Source: Eubacterium sp.
GTDB taxonomy: Bacteria; Bacillota_A; Clostridia; Lachnospirales; Lachnospiraceae
Assembly: GCA_023663915.1 (NCBI GenBank)
Contig: JAMPGN010000251.1
Location: forward strand, 1 to 5,657
Reading direction: 5' to 3'
Length of the DNA: 5,657 bases
Within the stretch, counting starts at the first letter, position 1. Every line of letters starts with the position of its first letter. The position numbers and the translations under genes were made by a program. The notes below the pieces were generated by a model. The model saw only the letters and a list, made by a program, of their open reading frames with translations. It had not been told where the DNA came from and did not search any database. This document shows, piece after piece, positions 1-5,657 of the stretch.

Positions 1-317
1 GCAAACTGTCTGGCAACGATAAAAGCATATTCCGCTATCCTGATCGCCATAGAGCCATCATCATAGCTCTGACACTCCAAAAGATATATCTCGTTTTCAA
101 TCTTAATCAGGAAATCTGAAACCTGCTCCTTTATTTCCTTGCTGCCGTCTAACGTTTCATTTTCAGTCAAATATCCTTCTGACGGCAATATCTCCACTTT
201 TGCGTCTATCGGATAGTTCTTTTCAAAAACATCGTTGATGACGGAAACAAACAATCTCTTATGCTTCATCTTCATTGTTTTAAACACGTTATCATAATCA
301 GGTGTCTTTTTCTGCAT
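1..317 (-). CDS. PD-(D/E)XK nuclease of the Rpn/transposase-like family, N-terminal part (runs off left edge)
   Basis: The ORF opens with ATG at 317-315 and stays open for 105 codons to the window edge, so the C-terminus is missing. The protein starts MQKKTPDYDNVFKTMKMKHK. It carries SDFLIKI (D68) followed by YLLECQSYDDGSMAIRIAEY (E81, Q83). This D...E-x-Q arrangement is the PD-(D/E)XK core of the Rpn 'recombination-promoting nuclease/putative transposase' group (PDDEXK_2-like), recognised from memory of the family. Members are DNA endonucleases implicated in RecA-independent recombination and are abundant, often multicopy, in Lachnospiraceae-type genomes. An AGGGAG ribosome binding site (333-328) lies 10 nt before the ATG and a promoter lies just upstream, so it is probably transcribed on its own rather than read only from the mod operon. 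It sits where a type III Res gene might be expected. Whether it is full length and active cannot be judged here. Family call fairly sure; role in this locus unknown. Confidence 0.85.
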   Translation of the reverse strand, partial: MQKKTPDYDNVFKTMKMKHKRLFVSVINDVFEKNYPIDAKVEILPSEGYLTENETLDGSKEIKEQVSDFLIKIENEIYLLECQSYDDGSMAIRIAEYAFIVARQF

Positions 318-416: not shown

Positions 417-2297
417 TTACAATACTTTCACTCTGGTATCCGGTGCAAGCATTTTAAAAATTTCACCTACATTGATTTTAGCCGGACTGCTGTTAAAACT
501 GCTGTCACGGAAAACAGCGCGCAGCGGCTGACGCTTGGCAATCTCTTTTACAACGGAATCAGGAACATTTTCATCAAAGCAGGCAATCAAATCGCCCTTA
601 TTATAAGTATGTACAGTGCAGCCTTCCATCTTCTCTGATGTGTACGGCATCGAAAGCGGAAGTCCCCATTCAAGCAAGCAGCCAAACAGTAAGTCAAGGT
701 CAGTGCGGTCAGGCTTGATGTTGGACTCCAACATAGAGAGCATATTCTGATTATATTCCTCCGCAGAATAGTAAACATCGGTCATGTTGGTGTCGTCTAG
801 TTTGAATACTCGAAAGCCGCCGTCAAATGGCTTGTCCGGATTTTCAGTAGCAATTTTCTTGGCGGCACGGCGGATGCGTTCTTTGCCGATTTCACAGATA
901 TTTTTGTATCCTGCTTTATATGCTTCCGATTTTTCATCACATAATTCTGGAAGCTGCACCATAATAAACTTACGATGTCCGCCATCTTCGGCGTTAAGCT
1001 GCATAACGGCGTGGGCGGTGGTGGCGGAGCCAGAGAAGAAGTCAAGTACAACGGAATCTTTATCGGTAGCTTGTAAAATAAGAGCTTTAATAAGTGATTC
1101 TGGTTTTGTATAAGTAAAAAATGCTTTCCCAAATAAGTCATACATTTGCTTTGTTCCTTCGGTGTTCATTCCAATTCCATCCATCCATGTAGATTGCGGA
1201 TTAGTGCCAGAATCTAACTCAGAAGCAAAACGTTTTTTCATTGGTCTTTTTGATGTATCATCAGGAAATACTATCCTGTTCTCTGCGATAAGTTGAGCCA
1301 TAGATTCAGGTATATATGACCATACTCGATTATAATTTGGTTTATATACTTTTCCGGTTTTAGGATCAATAAGATCATAGTATTGATTAGGTCGCATATC
1401 GCCTGTCATCCCAACCGTTAAATCACCAGTAGTCCATGGACCACGTGGATCATTATCAGGATTTGAATATCCTTTATAATCTTTATCAATACCTCGAAAT
1501 GATCGAAAATGGCTTCCCCTATACGCCAATACATATTCATGGTCAGTTGAACATTTACTTTTGTCAAGTTGTGAAGATGCTCGCCTTTTCCATACAAATG
1601 TAGCCAAAAATGATTGTATGCCAAACACCTCATCGCATATTCCTTTTAGGTTAGATACTTCATTATCATCAATACTAATGAAAATAACCCCATCATCTCT
1701 TAGCAGATTTCTCGCAAGCATAAGACGCGAGTAAATCATACTACACCAGTCAGAATGAAACCGACCATTACTATCTGTATTCTTGAAAAGTCGATTCCCG
1801 GTTTCCTCATCCACCTGCCCGGATTCCTCGCTGTATTCTTCTTGACTCTGCGTGAAATCATCCCGATAAATAAAATCGTTACCTGTATTATAAGGCGGAT
1901 CAATGTAAATCATCTTTACTTTGCCAAGATAGCTTTCTTGTAAAAGTTTCAACACCTCAAGGTTATCACCTTCAATATAAAGATTTTCAGTTGTATCCCA
2001 ATCCACGCTTTCTTCCGGGCAAGGGCGCAGCGTTTTACGAATAGGTTTGTTTGCTTCTACAATAGCAGCTTTCTTTCCTACCCACGTAAATTCGTAAGCT
2101 TCCGCCCCCCCCCCTAAAATTTCACCAGACAGCATCTGGCGCAGCATCTCGAAATTAACTACTTTCTTATAAACTTTGTGTTCAGGAGTGCTATGTTCCT
2201 CATCCAACGCCTCGGTGATACAGTTTGGAAACAGTTCTGCAATTCTGTTAATATTTTGTGCCGTCATATCCACCGACTCCATTCTCATTTTTTCCAT
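417..2297 (-). CDS. Type III Mod-like site-specific DNA (adenine-N6) methyltransferase with a poly-G tract
   Basis: This 626-aa protein transfers a methyl group from S-adenosylmethionine to DNA, most likely adenine N6. The catalytic motif IV is IYIDPPYNTG (D133-P-P-Y136). The SAM-binding motif I, LDFFSGSATTAHA, comes later (419-430). The order IV, target-recognition region, I is the beta class used by type III Mod subunits, and 626 aa is a normal Mod length. The N-terminus (RIAELFPNC) and C-terminus (RDSS..., then LAPDTRVKVL) also match Mod proteins from memory, so it appears complete. ATG at 2297 is chosen because GGAGG (2311-2307) lies 9 nt upstream, inside the end of the DUF4391 gene. M11 is an alternative start with a poorer site. 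The gene begins 1 nt after the DUF4391 stop, implying translational coupling. A ten-G tract at codons 62-65 makes it a candidate phase-variable gene. Codons about 170-406 are clearly AT-richer than the rest. The gene itself is intact; its recognition site cannot be read from sequence. Confidence 0.96.
   Translation of the reverse strand: MEKMRMESVDMTAQNINRIAELFPNCITEALDEEHSTPEHKVYKKVVNFEMLRQMLSGEILGGGAEAYEFTWVGKKAAIVEANKPIRKTLRPCPEESVDWDTTENLYIEGDNLEVLKLLQESYLGKVKMIYIDPPYNTGNDFIYRDDFTQSQEEYSEESGQVDEETGNRLFKNTDSNGRFHSDWCSMIYSRLMLARNLLRDDGVIFISIDDNEVSNLKGICDEVFGIQSFLATFVWKRRASSQLDKSKCSTDHEYVLAYRGSHFRSFRGIDKDYKGYSNPDNDPRGPWTTGDLTVGMTGDMRPNQYYDLIDPKTGKVYKPNYNRVWSYIPESMAQLIAENRIVFPDDTSKRPMKKRFASELDSGTNPQSTWMDGIGMNTEGTKQMYDLFGKAFFTYTKPESLIKALILQATDKDSVVLDFFSGSATTAHAVMQLNAEDGGHRKFIMVQLPELCDEKSEAYKAGYKNICEIGKERIRRAAKKIATENPDKPFDGGFRVFKLDDTNMTDVYYSAEEYNQNMLSMLESNIKPDRTDLDLLFGCLLEWGLPLSMPYTSEKMEGCTVHTYNKGDLIACFDENVPDSVVKEIAKRQPLRAVFRDSSFNSSPAKINVGEIFKMLAPDTRVKVL
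2105..2114 (-). repeat. Poly-G homopolymer tract (10 G on the coding strand) within mod
   Basis: Ten consecutive C on the plus strand read as ten G in the mod coding strand, encoding G62-G63-G64 and the first base of A65. Ten keeps mod in frame. Nine would stop at TAG 2080-2078 (72-aa product); eleven would stop at TAA 2037-2035 (87-aa product). Both end before catalytic D133. Homopolymers this long are prone to slipped-strand mispairing. The variable linker between N-terminal domain and core tolerates glycine, so changes of three G would probably be harmless. Confidence 0.97.
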
Positions 2298-2298
2298 T

Positions 2299-2955
2299 TC
2301 AGAGTTCCTCCAGCTCCTTTTTCAATTTCTTCAACTCCGCATTCATCTGTACCTGTTTATTTAGCTGTTTTTCCTTACGCACTTTTGCCTGCAATGCCAT
2401 AATCTGCTTTTCAAGTTCCCGCCGACGGTTATCCCGTTCCACAGACTCTTTCAGCGACTCGTTCCTGCTTTCCGCAGAACACAGCGCATCACCCGCAATC
2501 TGGCGCACAAAGTTTTCATACACCTTATCGACACTCAGACCACCAACCTTCAATGGCAGTTCGGACTCCGTCATCCAATCAGTATGGTAATAGGTTCCCA
2601 CCTTAAAAGCATTACTGCCAGCGTCCGTCGCTTCTTTATAAGCTGTCCACGCCTGATATTTACCTTCATATTCCAAAAGGAACAGAATATGATAAGGTAT
2701 CTCTTTATCAATCTGCCGAAGCGCTGACTCATCAAACTGCTGTCCATTCAGCCGGATTTCAAAGACTTCAACTTCGGTTACAGTATCTCCATTGGCAAGA
2801 TTCATGGTCGCAGCCGCCACCTTGTTACGCCAGTATATTACTTTTATCTGGTCTATAAACACACGCTTTAATGTGGGCGATACGGAAAGATTCTCATAGA
2901 ACTTCTGTTTTGGTATGCGCCGGTTAAACTCTGTGCTTTGCGGTAATCCAATCAC
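2299..2955 (-). CDS. DUF4391 domain protein with C-terminal coiled coil
   Basis: This 218-aa protein opens (M/V)IGLPQSTEFNRRIPKQKF, the characteristic start of DUF4391 proteins. The core follows with TLKRVFIDQIKVIYWRNK, IPYHILFLLEYEGKYQAW and YYHTDW. The last roughly 55 residues (from about RNESLKESVERDNRRR to the Leu-Glu-Glu-Leu end) are rich in Lys/Glu with Leu/Ile/Val spacing, a predicted coiled coil suited to dimerisation or binding a partner. The molecular function of DUF4391 is not established as far as I know. From memory, members recur beside type III-like Mod and SNF2-like helicases, as here, so a role as a subunit of that complex is inference. The start is GTG at 2955: GGAGGT (2968-2963) lies 7 nt upstream. 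An upstream in-frame GTG at 2964 overlaps that site and is unlikely. It follows the helicase stop by 59 nt, a stretch containing an inverted repeat, and runs 1 nt from mod. Confidence 0.88.
   Translation of the reverse strand: MIGLPQSTEFNRRIPKQKFYENLSVSPTLKRVFIDQIKVIYWRNKVAAATMNLANGDTVTEVEVFEIRLNGQQFDESALRQIDKEIPYHILFLLEYEGKYQAWTAYKEATDAGSNAFKVGTYYHTDWMTESELPLKVGGLSVDKVYENFVRQIAGDALCSAESRNESLKESVERDNRRRELEKQIMALQAKVRKEKQLNKQVQMNAELKKLKKELEEL
2307..2311 (-). promoter_or_regulatory. Ribosome binding site of mod, inside the DUF4391 coding end
   Basis: GGAGG lies 9 nt before ATG 2297 and overlaps the last codons (Leu-Glu-Glu-Leu) of the upstream gene. It decides the start in favour of 2297 over the in-frame ATG for M11, whose upstream GGAGTCGGTGG is weaker. 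With a 1-nt gap between stop and start, ribosomes finishing DUF4391 can reinitiate on mod. Confidence 0.8.
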
Positions 2956-2962
2956 CGGATAC

Positions 2963-2968
2963 ACCTCC
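2963..2968 (-). promoter_or_regulatory. Ribosome binding site deciding the DUF4391 GTG start
   Basis: GGAGGT with a 7-nt spacer to GTG 2955-2953. The longer open frame would start at GTG 2964-2962, but that codon overlaps this site itself, leaving no room for initiation. Starting at 2955 also gives the family-like (M)IGLPQSTE N-terminus. Confidence 0.8.
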
Positions 2969-2995: not shown

Positions 2996-3021
2996 TGTGT
3001 GAAAAATTTATTTTTCACACA
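2996..3021. repeat. Perfect 12-bp inverted repeat overlapping the helicase stop codon
   Basis: TGTGTGAAAAAT (2996-3007) and ATTTTTCACACA (3010-3021) are exact reverse complements around a 2-nt centre. The helicase stop (TGA, 3017-3015) lies inside the right arm. In the minus-strand transcript it can form a hairpin between the helicase and DUF4391 cistrons. There is no T run after it in the direction of transcription and the stem is AT-rich, so it is not a standard intrinsic terminator. It could be a processing or stability element, an attenuator, or a protein-binding palindrome. Confidence 0.9.
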
Positions 3022-5657
3022 ACTACCAGGAAACAAATCAGTTCAAAATCATCCAGCCCGCTAATCTCCGAGAGTAAAGCAGAAGTTCCTCCCGCCGAAA
3101 ACAGGCTGTCAATATCGCTTTCTTCTTTTACATCTATAATAGAGTTGATTGCATCGGAAAGAAGTTGTGACACTTCTGCCATATTTCTGCCATCGTCTGT
3201 TTTCCTATTAAATTTCTCACAAAGCAATACAATCAGTTCTGACTTGCCTCGGCACAGCAGCCGCACCGTATCCAGTAATTTCTTCGGGTTCAGGTAATCG
3301 CAGACAATTTCCCCATCCACACCTATATACACCATATAGAACGGATGAATACGATTCTGGTTATCAATGTTTATACTGTTATTGATATTCCGCAGAACAA
3401 AAATCACACCCTCCGGATTTTCTTCCGCAGCCTTAACCACAGCATGTAATCCCTTCGGCTTCTTATCAAGATCGCCATGTGTCTTTGTGTACTCCAAAAG
3501 GTCAAGCCGAAACTCATTGAGTCCCAAATCCATAATGGAAATACCCGTAGACATATCTTCGATATCCACAACCTCATCCTGTAAGCGTTTCAGCTGCTGC
3601 TTTCTGTATTCGAGGTCGCCTTTTTCTTCCGGATTAATCAGATCGTCATCCCCTGTGGAAGTCATGATGGAAATTTTCATTCTGGTTTCCACGCGGGATT
3701 TCAAATTGATGTAATCGTCCAAAGTCATATCCGGCCAGAAATTTACCAGCTGGATATACTGGTTTCTGCTGCCGATACGGTCAATACGACCGAAACGCTG
3801 GATAATCCGCACCGGATTCCAATGTATATCATAATTCACCAAATAGTCACAGTCCTGCAAGTTCTGACCTTCTGAAATACAGTCAGTAGCAATCAGGATG
3901 TCGATTTCCTTTGTGCTGCCCGGCATCAGAACATCGCGGCTCTTAGAAATAGGTGAAAAACAGGTCAGCATATTATTGAGTGTTGCTTTCAGGTCTTTGA
4001 TCGTCGTGCGTCCGTCTATACTTCCGGTAATAACCGCAGTATCCAACCCGTACTTCTCTTTCGCATAACCTGACACCTGATCGTAGAGATATTCTGCCGT
4101 ATCGGAAAAGGCGGAGAAAATCAGCACTTTCTTGTTGCCTTCATTGATCGGCTGGCAGATTTTGTCATCCAACAGCTGCAAAAGCGTCTGTAATTTCAAA
4201 TCATGCTCCGGTGTAACTTCCGCAATCATAAGCATCAGCAGTTCAAGCGTATCGGCATCCCTACGCAGTTCCTCCCGCCATGTTTTATAATCCATATCAG
4301 CAAGGTCGATTTTCACTTTCCTGCCGACCGTGAAAAAGTCATTATTTTCATCATCCATATCAAAATCGCTTCCGGATGCCTCATACATATCCAGATCAGC
4401 CGTACCGCTTTTCTCAAAATCATCAATCGACTGGATGGTATTCTTTATCAGCTTCAGAATCCTGCCGAGCGTCAGTTGCATCAACTGCTCGTATATCTGA
4501 TTATAGTTTATCGCGCTTGAAAGGTCAGTCATGCTCGGACGCCTTGATATGGGTTTCAAACGCTGTGGAAACTTACCAATTTTTTCTGTATTGTAATATT
4601 TTTCGATATGGCGTCTGGAGCGGGCAATCGTCACACTGTCGAGAACTTCAAAAAAATCAAAATCCAGTGTGCGAAGCAGCGCATCCGTAGTTCTCTCTTC
4701 CGGTTCAAGTTTGCTCCAGGCATTGAAAGCCTTCTGCGCCTGGCAGAAAATTTCATCAATCGGCTTCTTGGTATCAAGTTTCTCATTGATAAATCCCGAA
4801 TCTCCTTCATATGCAATGGCTAACTGGTTCTTTAGGTCAGTAAACCGGTCAAGGTCAAGCCCATTGGAAACCCCTCCGGAACGCGACAAATCCGTATGGA
4901 AAAGGACATCATAATTGAAACGGTCAGAAGCAATCGGATTATTGATATAATTATCCTTGTATGTATTCCAGTTCTCGGACAGCTTTTTCGGACAGAGTAC
5001 GAGAACTGATTTATTCCTGTTTTCATAATATTTTATGACTGCCAAAGCAGTGAAAGTCTTACCAAGACCAACGCTGTCAGCAAGGATACAGCCATTGTAC
5101 TTTTCCAGTTTATTGATGATGGCAAGCACTGCATCGCGCTGGAAATCATACAGCATACTCCAGATTTTACTCTGCTTAAATCCCGTAGCTTCATTTGGAA
5201 GGACATCTTCAGAAATATCATCAAGAAACTCACTGAACACATTGTAGAGCGTCATAAAGTAAATGAACTCCGGCGAGTTCTCATTATAGGCTGTACTGAT
5301 ATTGGAAATAATGACATCTGTTACATCCTGCATCTTGTCCCTGTCATGCCAAAGAGACTCAAATAACTGCATATACTGCGTGGAGAAAGGGGCTTCCATA
5401 CGGTTTACCATATTATAGCTGTTATTGCCGCGCTCACATCCGATATCCACAGTCGTAAATCCATTCATCGGCAGATACGCGACTTTTTCTGCAGGCGCAT
5501 CGACAGTCATAAAGCCGCCCATGTTCTCGCCGGTAACATTTGATTTGAAAGTTGCCTTACGCCTGATCCAGTCCGCACACTCCTTTGCAATGGCTTTCTG
5601 TGTCATTTCATTGCGCAGCTTGACTTCAAACTCCGTACCATACAGACTGTTTTCACG
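3015..5657 (-). CDS. SNF2-like (superfamily 2) helicase/ATPase, 5' end beyond the window; Walker B and SAT motifs appear deleted
   Basis: The frame is open to the right edge: 17 codons (RENSLYGTEFEVKLRNE) precede the internal ATG at 5606, so that ATG is not the real start and 880 residues are visible. From memory this family has a further N-terminal region, possibly phospholipase-D-like, outside the window. Numbering from the 5606 Met: Walker A ILADSVGLGKT (174-184), motif Ia VLVLCPKKL (201-209), motif IV VLIFSAFSDTAEYL (494-507), motif V IATDCISEGQNLQ (572-584), motif VI IIQRFGRIDRIGS (601-613). The C-terminus, SLFSAGGTSALLSEISGLDD then FELICFLVVV, is the family's normal end. Family members normally carry a VVIDESHNFRN block and an LMLSATPVNNR block between Ia and FTDL(K/R)NQLA; neither exists here, and R254 is joined directly to F255. 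A second block expected between QLTL and GRI (after 380), including LLKRLESS, is also absent. It heads the operon with DUF4391 and mod. ATP hydrolysis is predicted to be lost; protein function is uncertain. Confidence 0.93.
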   Translation of the reverse strand, partial: RENSLYGTEFEVKLRNEMTQKAIAKECADWIRRKATFKSNVTGENMGGFMTVDAPAEKVAYLPMNGFTTVDIGCERGNNSYNMVNRMEAPFSTQYMQLFESLWHDRDKMQDVTDVIISNISTAYNENSPEFIYFMTLYNVFSEFLDDISEDVLPNEATGFKQSKIWSMLYDFQRDAVLAIINKLEKYNGCILADSVGLGKTFTALAVIKYYENRNKSVLVLCPKKLSENWNTYKDNYINNPIASDRFNYDVLFHTDLSRSGGVSNGLDLDRFTDLKNQLAIAYEGDSGFINEKLDTKKPIDEIFCQAQKAFNAWSKLEPEERTTDALLRTLDFDFFEVLDSVTIARSRRHIEKYYNTEKIGKFPQRLKPISRRPSMTDLSSAINYNQIYEQLMQLTLGRILKLIKNTIQSIDDFEKSGTADLDMYEASGSDFDMDDENNDFFTVGRKVKIDLADMDYKTWREELRRDADTLELLMLMIAEVTPEHDLKLQTLLQLLDDKICQPINEGNKKVLIFSAFSDTAEYLYDQVSGYAKEKYGLDTAVITGSIDGRTTIKDLKATLNNMLTCFSPISKSRDVLMPGSTKEIDILIATDCISEGQNLQDCDYLVNYDIHWNPVRIIQRFGRIDRIGSRNQYIQLVNFWPDMTLDDYINLKSRVETRMKISIMTSTGDDDLINPEEKGDLEYRKQQLKRLQDEVVDIEDMSTGISIMDLGLNEFRLDLLEYTKTHGDLDKKPKGLHAVVKAAEENPEGVIFVLRNINNSINIDNQNRIHPFYMVYIGVDGEIVCDYLNPKKLLDTVRLLCRGKSELIVLLCEKFNRKTDDGRNMAEVSQLLSDAINSIIDVKEESDIDSLFSAGGTSALLSEISGLDDFELICFLVVV
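4467..4475 (-). other. Probable in-frame deletion junction 2 in the helicase gene (LTL codons 378-380)
   Basis: The sequence reads YEQLMQLTL then GRILKLIKNTI. In relatives recalled from memory the first segment continues toward a block ending NLLKRLESSVYSFRLTL, which then runs into R-I-x-x-L-I. Because Leu-Thr-Leu ends both flanks, recombination between short repeats such as CTGACGCTC would produce exactly this join, removing an estimated 70-80 residues without shifting frame. The join is seen; the missing block rests on family memory. Confidence 0.65.
4845..4849 (-). other. Probable in-frame deletion junction 1 in the helicase gene (between R254 and F255)
   Basis: SNGLDLDR is followed at once by FTDLKNQLAIAYEGD. 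In relatives, LDR is followed by LNWGNYDLVVIDESHNFRN and, after a variable stretch, TKVLMLSATPVNNR, then FTDL(R/K)NQLA. Both flanks end in Arg, and the ACCGG here (Asp/Asn-Arg codons) is a plausible short direct repeat that recombined. The loss, about 60-70 residues by estimate, removes motif II (DExH) and motif III (SAT). No DExH or SAT motif occurs elsewhere in the 880 visible residues. Confidence 0.72.

Follow-up and report, generated by a model that had tools for sequence, protein, structure and literature searches.

This locus raises the question of whether a run of ten guanines inside a DNA methyltransferase gene acts as a switch that turns the gene on and off, or is simply a glycine linker that became long by chance. 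We analysed the whole stretch of 5,657 nucleotides, hereafter called the window and probably the entire contig, the contig recorded for this Mod being 5,657 bases long. It carries on its minus strand, in this order, a SNF2-type helicase gene, a DUF4391 gene and the methyltransferase gene mod. The features of the window are the following:

3015..5657, minus strand: SNF2-type helicase gene, truncated at its 5' end by the contig edge and missing two in-frame blocks, each of about 59 codons.
2299..2964, minus strand: DUF4391 gene, 221 aa (PF14335, 7.9e-60), one base upstream of mod.
417..2297, minus strand: type III mod, 626 aa, a beta-class N6-adenine methyltransferase by motif order (PF01555, 2.1e-33; PADLOC MTase_III PDLC03634, 1.9e-235; structures 4zcf and 6k0w).
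2105..2114, minus strand: G10 homopolymer (C10 on the plus strand) in codons 62-65 of mod, the proposed slippage switch, ON at this length.
3..317, minus strand: ORF after mod, running off the end of the contig, with weak, sub-threshold Transposase_31/YhgA-like similarity (E 0.0066, below the gathering score).

Looking at the protein, its sequence identifies a type III modification methyltransferase with predicted adenine activity. A preliminary description of this DNA had called the gene type III-like, and this was borne out by the PADLOC MTase_III model, which spans residues 1-625 (1.9e-235), and by the EcoP15I Mod structure 4zcf, matched in sequence at 1.7e-69; a sequence match to another solved Mod structure, 6k0w, was also found. 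The motifs come in the order DPPY, variable region, FFSGS, and both D133-P134-P135-Y136 and F420-F421-x-G423-S424 were invariant across 45 aligned relatives. In the predicted structure (mean pLDDT 74), the linker encoded by the tract comes after a small N-terminal part and before the methyltransferase domain; residues 61-74 form neither helix nor strand, and residues 62-71 have a pLDDT below 50. Since this low-confidence linker lacks helix and strand, and since similarity to the solved Mod structures starts only at residue 62-63, one glycine more or less should be tolerated.

The tract itself consists of codons 62-64 (GGG GGG GGG) together with the initial G of codon 65 (GCG). Direct reading of the sequence thus agreed with the preliminary description, which had reported ten uninterrupted in-frame G at codons 62-65, and the frame outcomes it had given also held, with matching stop positions: a version with nine G ends after 72 aa (stop triplet 2080-2078) and a version with eleven G after 87 aa (stop triplet 2037-2035), both before DPPY. 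In other words, mod contains an in-frame simple sequence repeat whose change in length by one unit breaks the frame, one of the features by which a phase-variable mod gene is recognised. No other G or C run of at least 6 exists across all 5,657 bases of the window, and a G10 run appeared in none of 200 dinucleotide-preserving shuffles (0/200). The run is more than the product of a glycine-rich protein, because GGG accounts for 11 of the 88 remaining Gly codons in the three window genes and because the G-run at this site does not exceed 5 in the relatives that were read in frame.

That last value comes from a comparison of genome loci, the best 80 of 584 confirmed relatives; the nearest of these loci belong mostly to Lachnospiraceae and other Clostridia, and some to other phyla. 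The tract site, located before an FTW motif, could be read in frame in 51 of the 80, the script having set aside the other 29 (including Peptoniphilus senegalensis JC140, see below), and in these 51 relatives the longest G-run was 5. The residues found there were often E/D-G-D-E (26 rows inspected). Among the best 120 of 7998 proteins matching the window Mod, the window was alone in having three glycines (Gly3) at the site, and its closest matches there, P0002-P0009, are 85-88% identical and have no tract. Within the same best 120, the window allele occurs as a single copy, from one contig. A second search with residues 38-85 (best 120 of 7956 proteins) added one Gly3 protein, P0137 (IVGGGSERYEFTW), available as protein sequence. 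Because relatives mostly lack Gly3 or a G-run at the site, the tract appears to have expanded locally, in the lineage of the window.

A local expansion could have arisen by chance and been fixed as a glycine linker, a reading in which the run mutates somewhat faster than average and ON/OFF variation is not kept by selection. The single listed sequence of the window allele, the nearest listed relatives without tract and a linker that the model shows as disordered and that might accept changes all fit this reading. We nevertheless consider it unlikely, as three GGG codons follow one another here although GGG makes up only 11 of the 88 other Gly codons, and as a distant relative has G10 at the same site out of frame while its allele also exists in frame.

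This distant relative is JC140 (NZ_HE610717.1; locus L075), the only one of the 80 genome loci with ten G at the homologous site. Its mod frame is broken at the G10, the upstream part lying in one frame and the part from FTW to DPPY in another. Around the broken mod the helicase (1082 aa), DUF4391 and Res genes are open, with the families SNF2-rel_dom and Helicase_C, DUF4391, and REase_III (1.8e-285), respectively. The same gene occurs whole: P0241 is full-length and matches JC140 at 100% identity both before and after the tract, P0239 and P0240 are 100% identical to JC140 after the tract, and P0242 is a truncated entry of JC140's allele. More generally, the relatives of JC140 (best 120 of 7998 proteins) include 11 full-length proteins with VVGGG and 9 that start at MIYIDPPY, after the tract. 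Counts of these forms were taken over complete sets of 358 and 120 proteins. Four recognition-domain alleles were found in both full-length and truncated form, with 99.8-100% identity between the forms:

JC140 allele: full-length P0239-P0241, truncated P0242, 99.8%.
Second allele: full-length P0251, truncated P0266, 100%.
Third allele: full-length P0275, truncated P0305 (source name Peptoniphilus tyrrelliae), 100%; the non-Gly3 protein P0293 is also near, at 98.3%.
Fourth allele: full-length P0304, truncated P0322, 100%.

The truncated proteins P0243 and P0261 are 92% and 96% identical to a Gly3 protein, and P0269, P0274 and P0347, whose best partners are 69-74% identical, carry little information. 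In all, 8 of the 9 truncated proteins pair best with a Gly3 allele, though Gly3 proteins make up 11 of the 111 other rows, a count favoured by the ordering of the list by similarity to JC140 and including, among the 8, two pairs in which a non-Gly3 protein trails by 0.4% or less. That these proteins were merely cut by contig ends is disfavoured, as the Met at which they start is always the same residue and the longest contigs measure about 10-57 kb. The truncated proteins thus argue for a frame break, as a sign and not a proof. The tract was read as DNA in the window and in JC140, so that for Peptoniphilus it is the frame-broken form whose DNA is known, and in the full-length form and the other Gly3 proteins a G-run is deduced from the residues.

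Could the run lengths themselves be wrong? Runs of ten are error-prone on some sequencing platforms, and the contig of the window also has two odd in-frame deletions in its helicase gene; the true length of the tract might then differ from ten, and homopolymer errors in assemblies could account for JC140's broken frame and for the truncated entries. We regard such an artefact as improbable, since the window mod is open at exactly 10 G and the truncated proteins pair preferentially with Gly3 alleles (8/9, with the reservation on list order and margins given above).

Taken together, these results lead us to propose that the window mod is a poly-G phase-variable type III methyltransferase gene, switched by slipped-strand mispairing and ON in this assembly. 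We give this reading a probability of roughly 0.7, because a relative has a run at the same site and its gene occurs both whole and cut off. The preliminary description had proposed that a repeat-tract switch operates here, and this is strengthened by the Peptoniphilus allele, full-length in some entries and frame-broken at the same site in others; on the window's own side the claim still meets a tract present in one copy. During replication, slipped-strand mispairing would alter the run by one G; slippage programmed into transcription or translation is a conceivable alternative mechanism. With 10 G, or after a change by three, Mod would be made, with one Gly more or fewer in a flexible linker in the latter case; at other lengths translation would end after some 72-87 residues, short of the catalytic DPPY. 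In the OFF state modification would be lost, together with restriction if Res is present, because cleavage by a type III Res requires Mod (excerpted text of PMC12003011). In JC140 mod adjoins res, and polar effects of a premature stop in mod could reduce Res as well. The window tract would be hypermutable, a clone would become a mixture of methylating and non-methylating cells, and a downstream regulon (phasevarion) might follow the switch.

We then considered how the tract and the recognition domains are distributed among alleles. In blocks of 25 columns, similarity among the 11 Gly3 proteins of the Peptoniphilus group is 91-100% outside the recognition domain, falls to 84-85% where this domain begins and ends, and is 25-45% inside it; several recognition-domain alleles on conserved ends are therefore clear in this group. 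On a tree of 45 chosen Mod proteins, built without the recognition domain and the tract and read without support values, Gly3 fell in three separate regions (the window, P0137 and the Peptoniphilus group) and required five Fitch changes in all. This is a sign, not proof, that Gly3 was gained repeatedly at the site, and recombination between alleles may be behind the gains inside the Peptoniphilus group. A broader proposal, to which we give an even chance, is that of a multi-allelic poly-G phasevarion in Gram-positive anaerobes, in which a helicase-DUF4391-Mod-Res operon would have acquired the tract more than once at the Mod linker (window, P0137-type, Peptoniphilus) and at least four Peptoniphilus recognition-domain alleles would switch ON and OFF.

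Tracts at this Mod site are rare in species-representative genomes. When the tract pattern was searched in 130, 397 and 391 genomes (overlapping sets), JC140's mod was the only mod with such a run, and the other pattern hits, in genomes G457 and G749, had no Mod match in the hit regions (searches of 7, 130, 397 and 391 genomes). In viral contigs, the 36 loci found by Mod protein search contained no G or C run of at least 8 anywhere, and none of the 53 stretches found by the tract pattern had a Mod match. Within the genome loci, G or C runs of at least 8 numbered 3 in 179 kb of mod and 3 in 893 kb of the remainder, an enrichment that is not significant (p 0.063). Two of the other loci deserve mention. 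The mod of an Erysipelotrichaceae MAG (L016, 4097-4105) has an in-frame C9 near codon 34, a possible switch elsewhere in the gene. In a second MAG (L034, 7494-7502), a G9 lies, as judged by eye, at the apparent 3' end of the DUF4391 gene, and one frame continues into a further ORF; the DUF4391 frame of this MAG seems broken further upstream too.

The JC140 genome (G001) has only five G or C runs of at least 9 in 1.9 Mb (L191-L195), one of them in mod. The other four precede ORFs with N-termini that resemble, by eye, signal peptides, at a distance of 39-257 bases from the first ATG, and one of these ORFs has a Big_8 Ig domain. Promoter-type phase variation of surface proteins is possible at these four runs, and the five together hint at a wider poly-G switching programme.

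We also looked at the genes around the window mod, whose state bears on a further alternative. The window helicase has 880 residues, compared with 996-1000 over the same stretch in ten relatives. It shows two in-frame gaps, each some 59 codons long, at 4446-4493 and 4824-4868 (minus strand), with junctions at stretches that look, by eye, repeated in the relatives, and one of the two gaps has removed the DESH and SAT motifs. The helicase thus appears broken, either by a real deletion or by an artefact. The preliminary description expected an OFF switch to leave the helicase expressed; the helicase of this window would not be a normal one. The statement that mod is last in the operon is not supported, as it rests on the end of the contig. 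The window stops 416 bases past mod and contains no Res, whereas 64 relatives have 3 kb or more of sequence beyond mod (from the best 80 of 584; the other 16 loci had less than 3 kb or no mod end), and in 63 of them a Res match lies there, the query being the L075 Res (REase_III, 1.8e-285). The Res of the window's organism is thus probably beyond the contig end. The spacing between mod and Res was within 60 bases in 22 of the 63 relatives and about 67-3770 bases in the other 41, which leaves room there for varied extra genes. The ORF at 3-317 had no counterpart in the 80 relatives (E 1e-5, same strand, within 7 kb) and may be a gene intervening between mod and Res.

Because the window helicase looks broken, the locus might be decaying, with the helicase already inactive and the tract serving as a neutral hot spot for frameshifts while mod is being lost. 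The missing DESH and SAT motifs and a window without Res would agree with decay, but mod has an open frame and has kept DPPY and FFSGS, and Res probably lies past the contig end, as in 63 of 64 relatives; we hold this explanation to be highly improbable.

If the phase-variable reading is true, DNA methylation can be under a heritable random switch within a defence operon that is common among Clostridia-type anaerobes. Cells of one clone would then differ in whether they admit phages and plasmids, and perhaps also in gene expression. The kind of switch is known, and the bacterial group is one in which few are described; the more interesting part is the multi-allelic Peptoniphilus set. Repeat-driven ON/OFF mod genes are indeed a familiar kind, since about 20% of the mod genes in REBASE are already reported to carry repeats, and the named phasevarions belong to host-adapted pathogens, namely Haemophilus, Neisseria, Helicobacter, Streptococcus suis and Actinobacillus (both from the excerpted text of PMC11475388). 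Among the papers listed by a literature search limited to open-licence papers, none was on such a system in Peptoniphilus or Lachnospiraceae.

Among known systems, Helicobacter pylori modH (M.Hpy300X-type) shares with the window mod the type III N6-adenine Mod and the in-frame G-run switch, and in both genes a change of one base decides between a truncated and a full product (PMC12003011 and PMC5700931, in the portions available). This likeness is one of description and not of sequence comparison, and the window operon differs in having the SNF2 helicase and DUF4391 genes upstream. The repeats of modA genes are longer units. In modS of Streptococcus suis the unit is GAGCA, versus a single G in the window (PMC8125046, in its available portion). 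The excerpts of PMC8125046 and PMC11475388 place the repeat of modS and of Haemophilus and Neisseria modA near the start of the gene, as in the window, and describe conserved ends with a variable recognition domain, an architecture that the Peptoniphilus relatives share; regulons were measured for these phasevarions, whereas for the window mod a regulon would be a prediction. EcoP15I Mod (4zcf) belongs by sequence to the same Mod family, and its match begins at query residue 62, right at the tract. A further parallel is JC140 mod, with G10 at the homologous site and the same helicase-DUF4391-mod order; it differs from the window gene in being out of frame at 10 G, in having Res directly after it and in encoding a Mod 55% identical to the window's.
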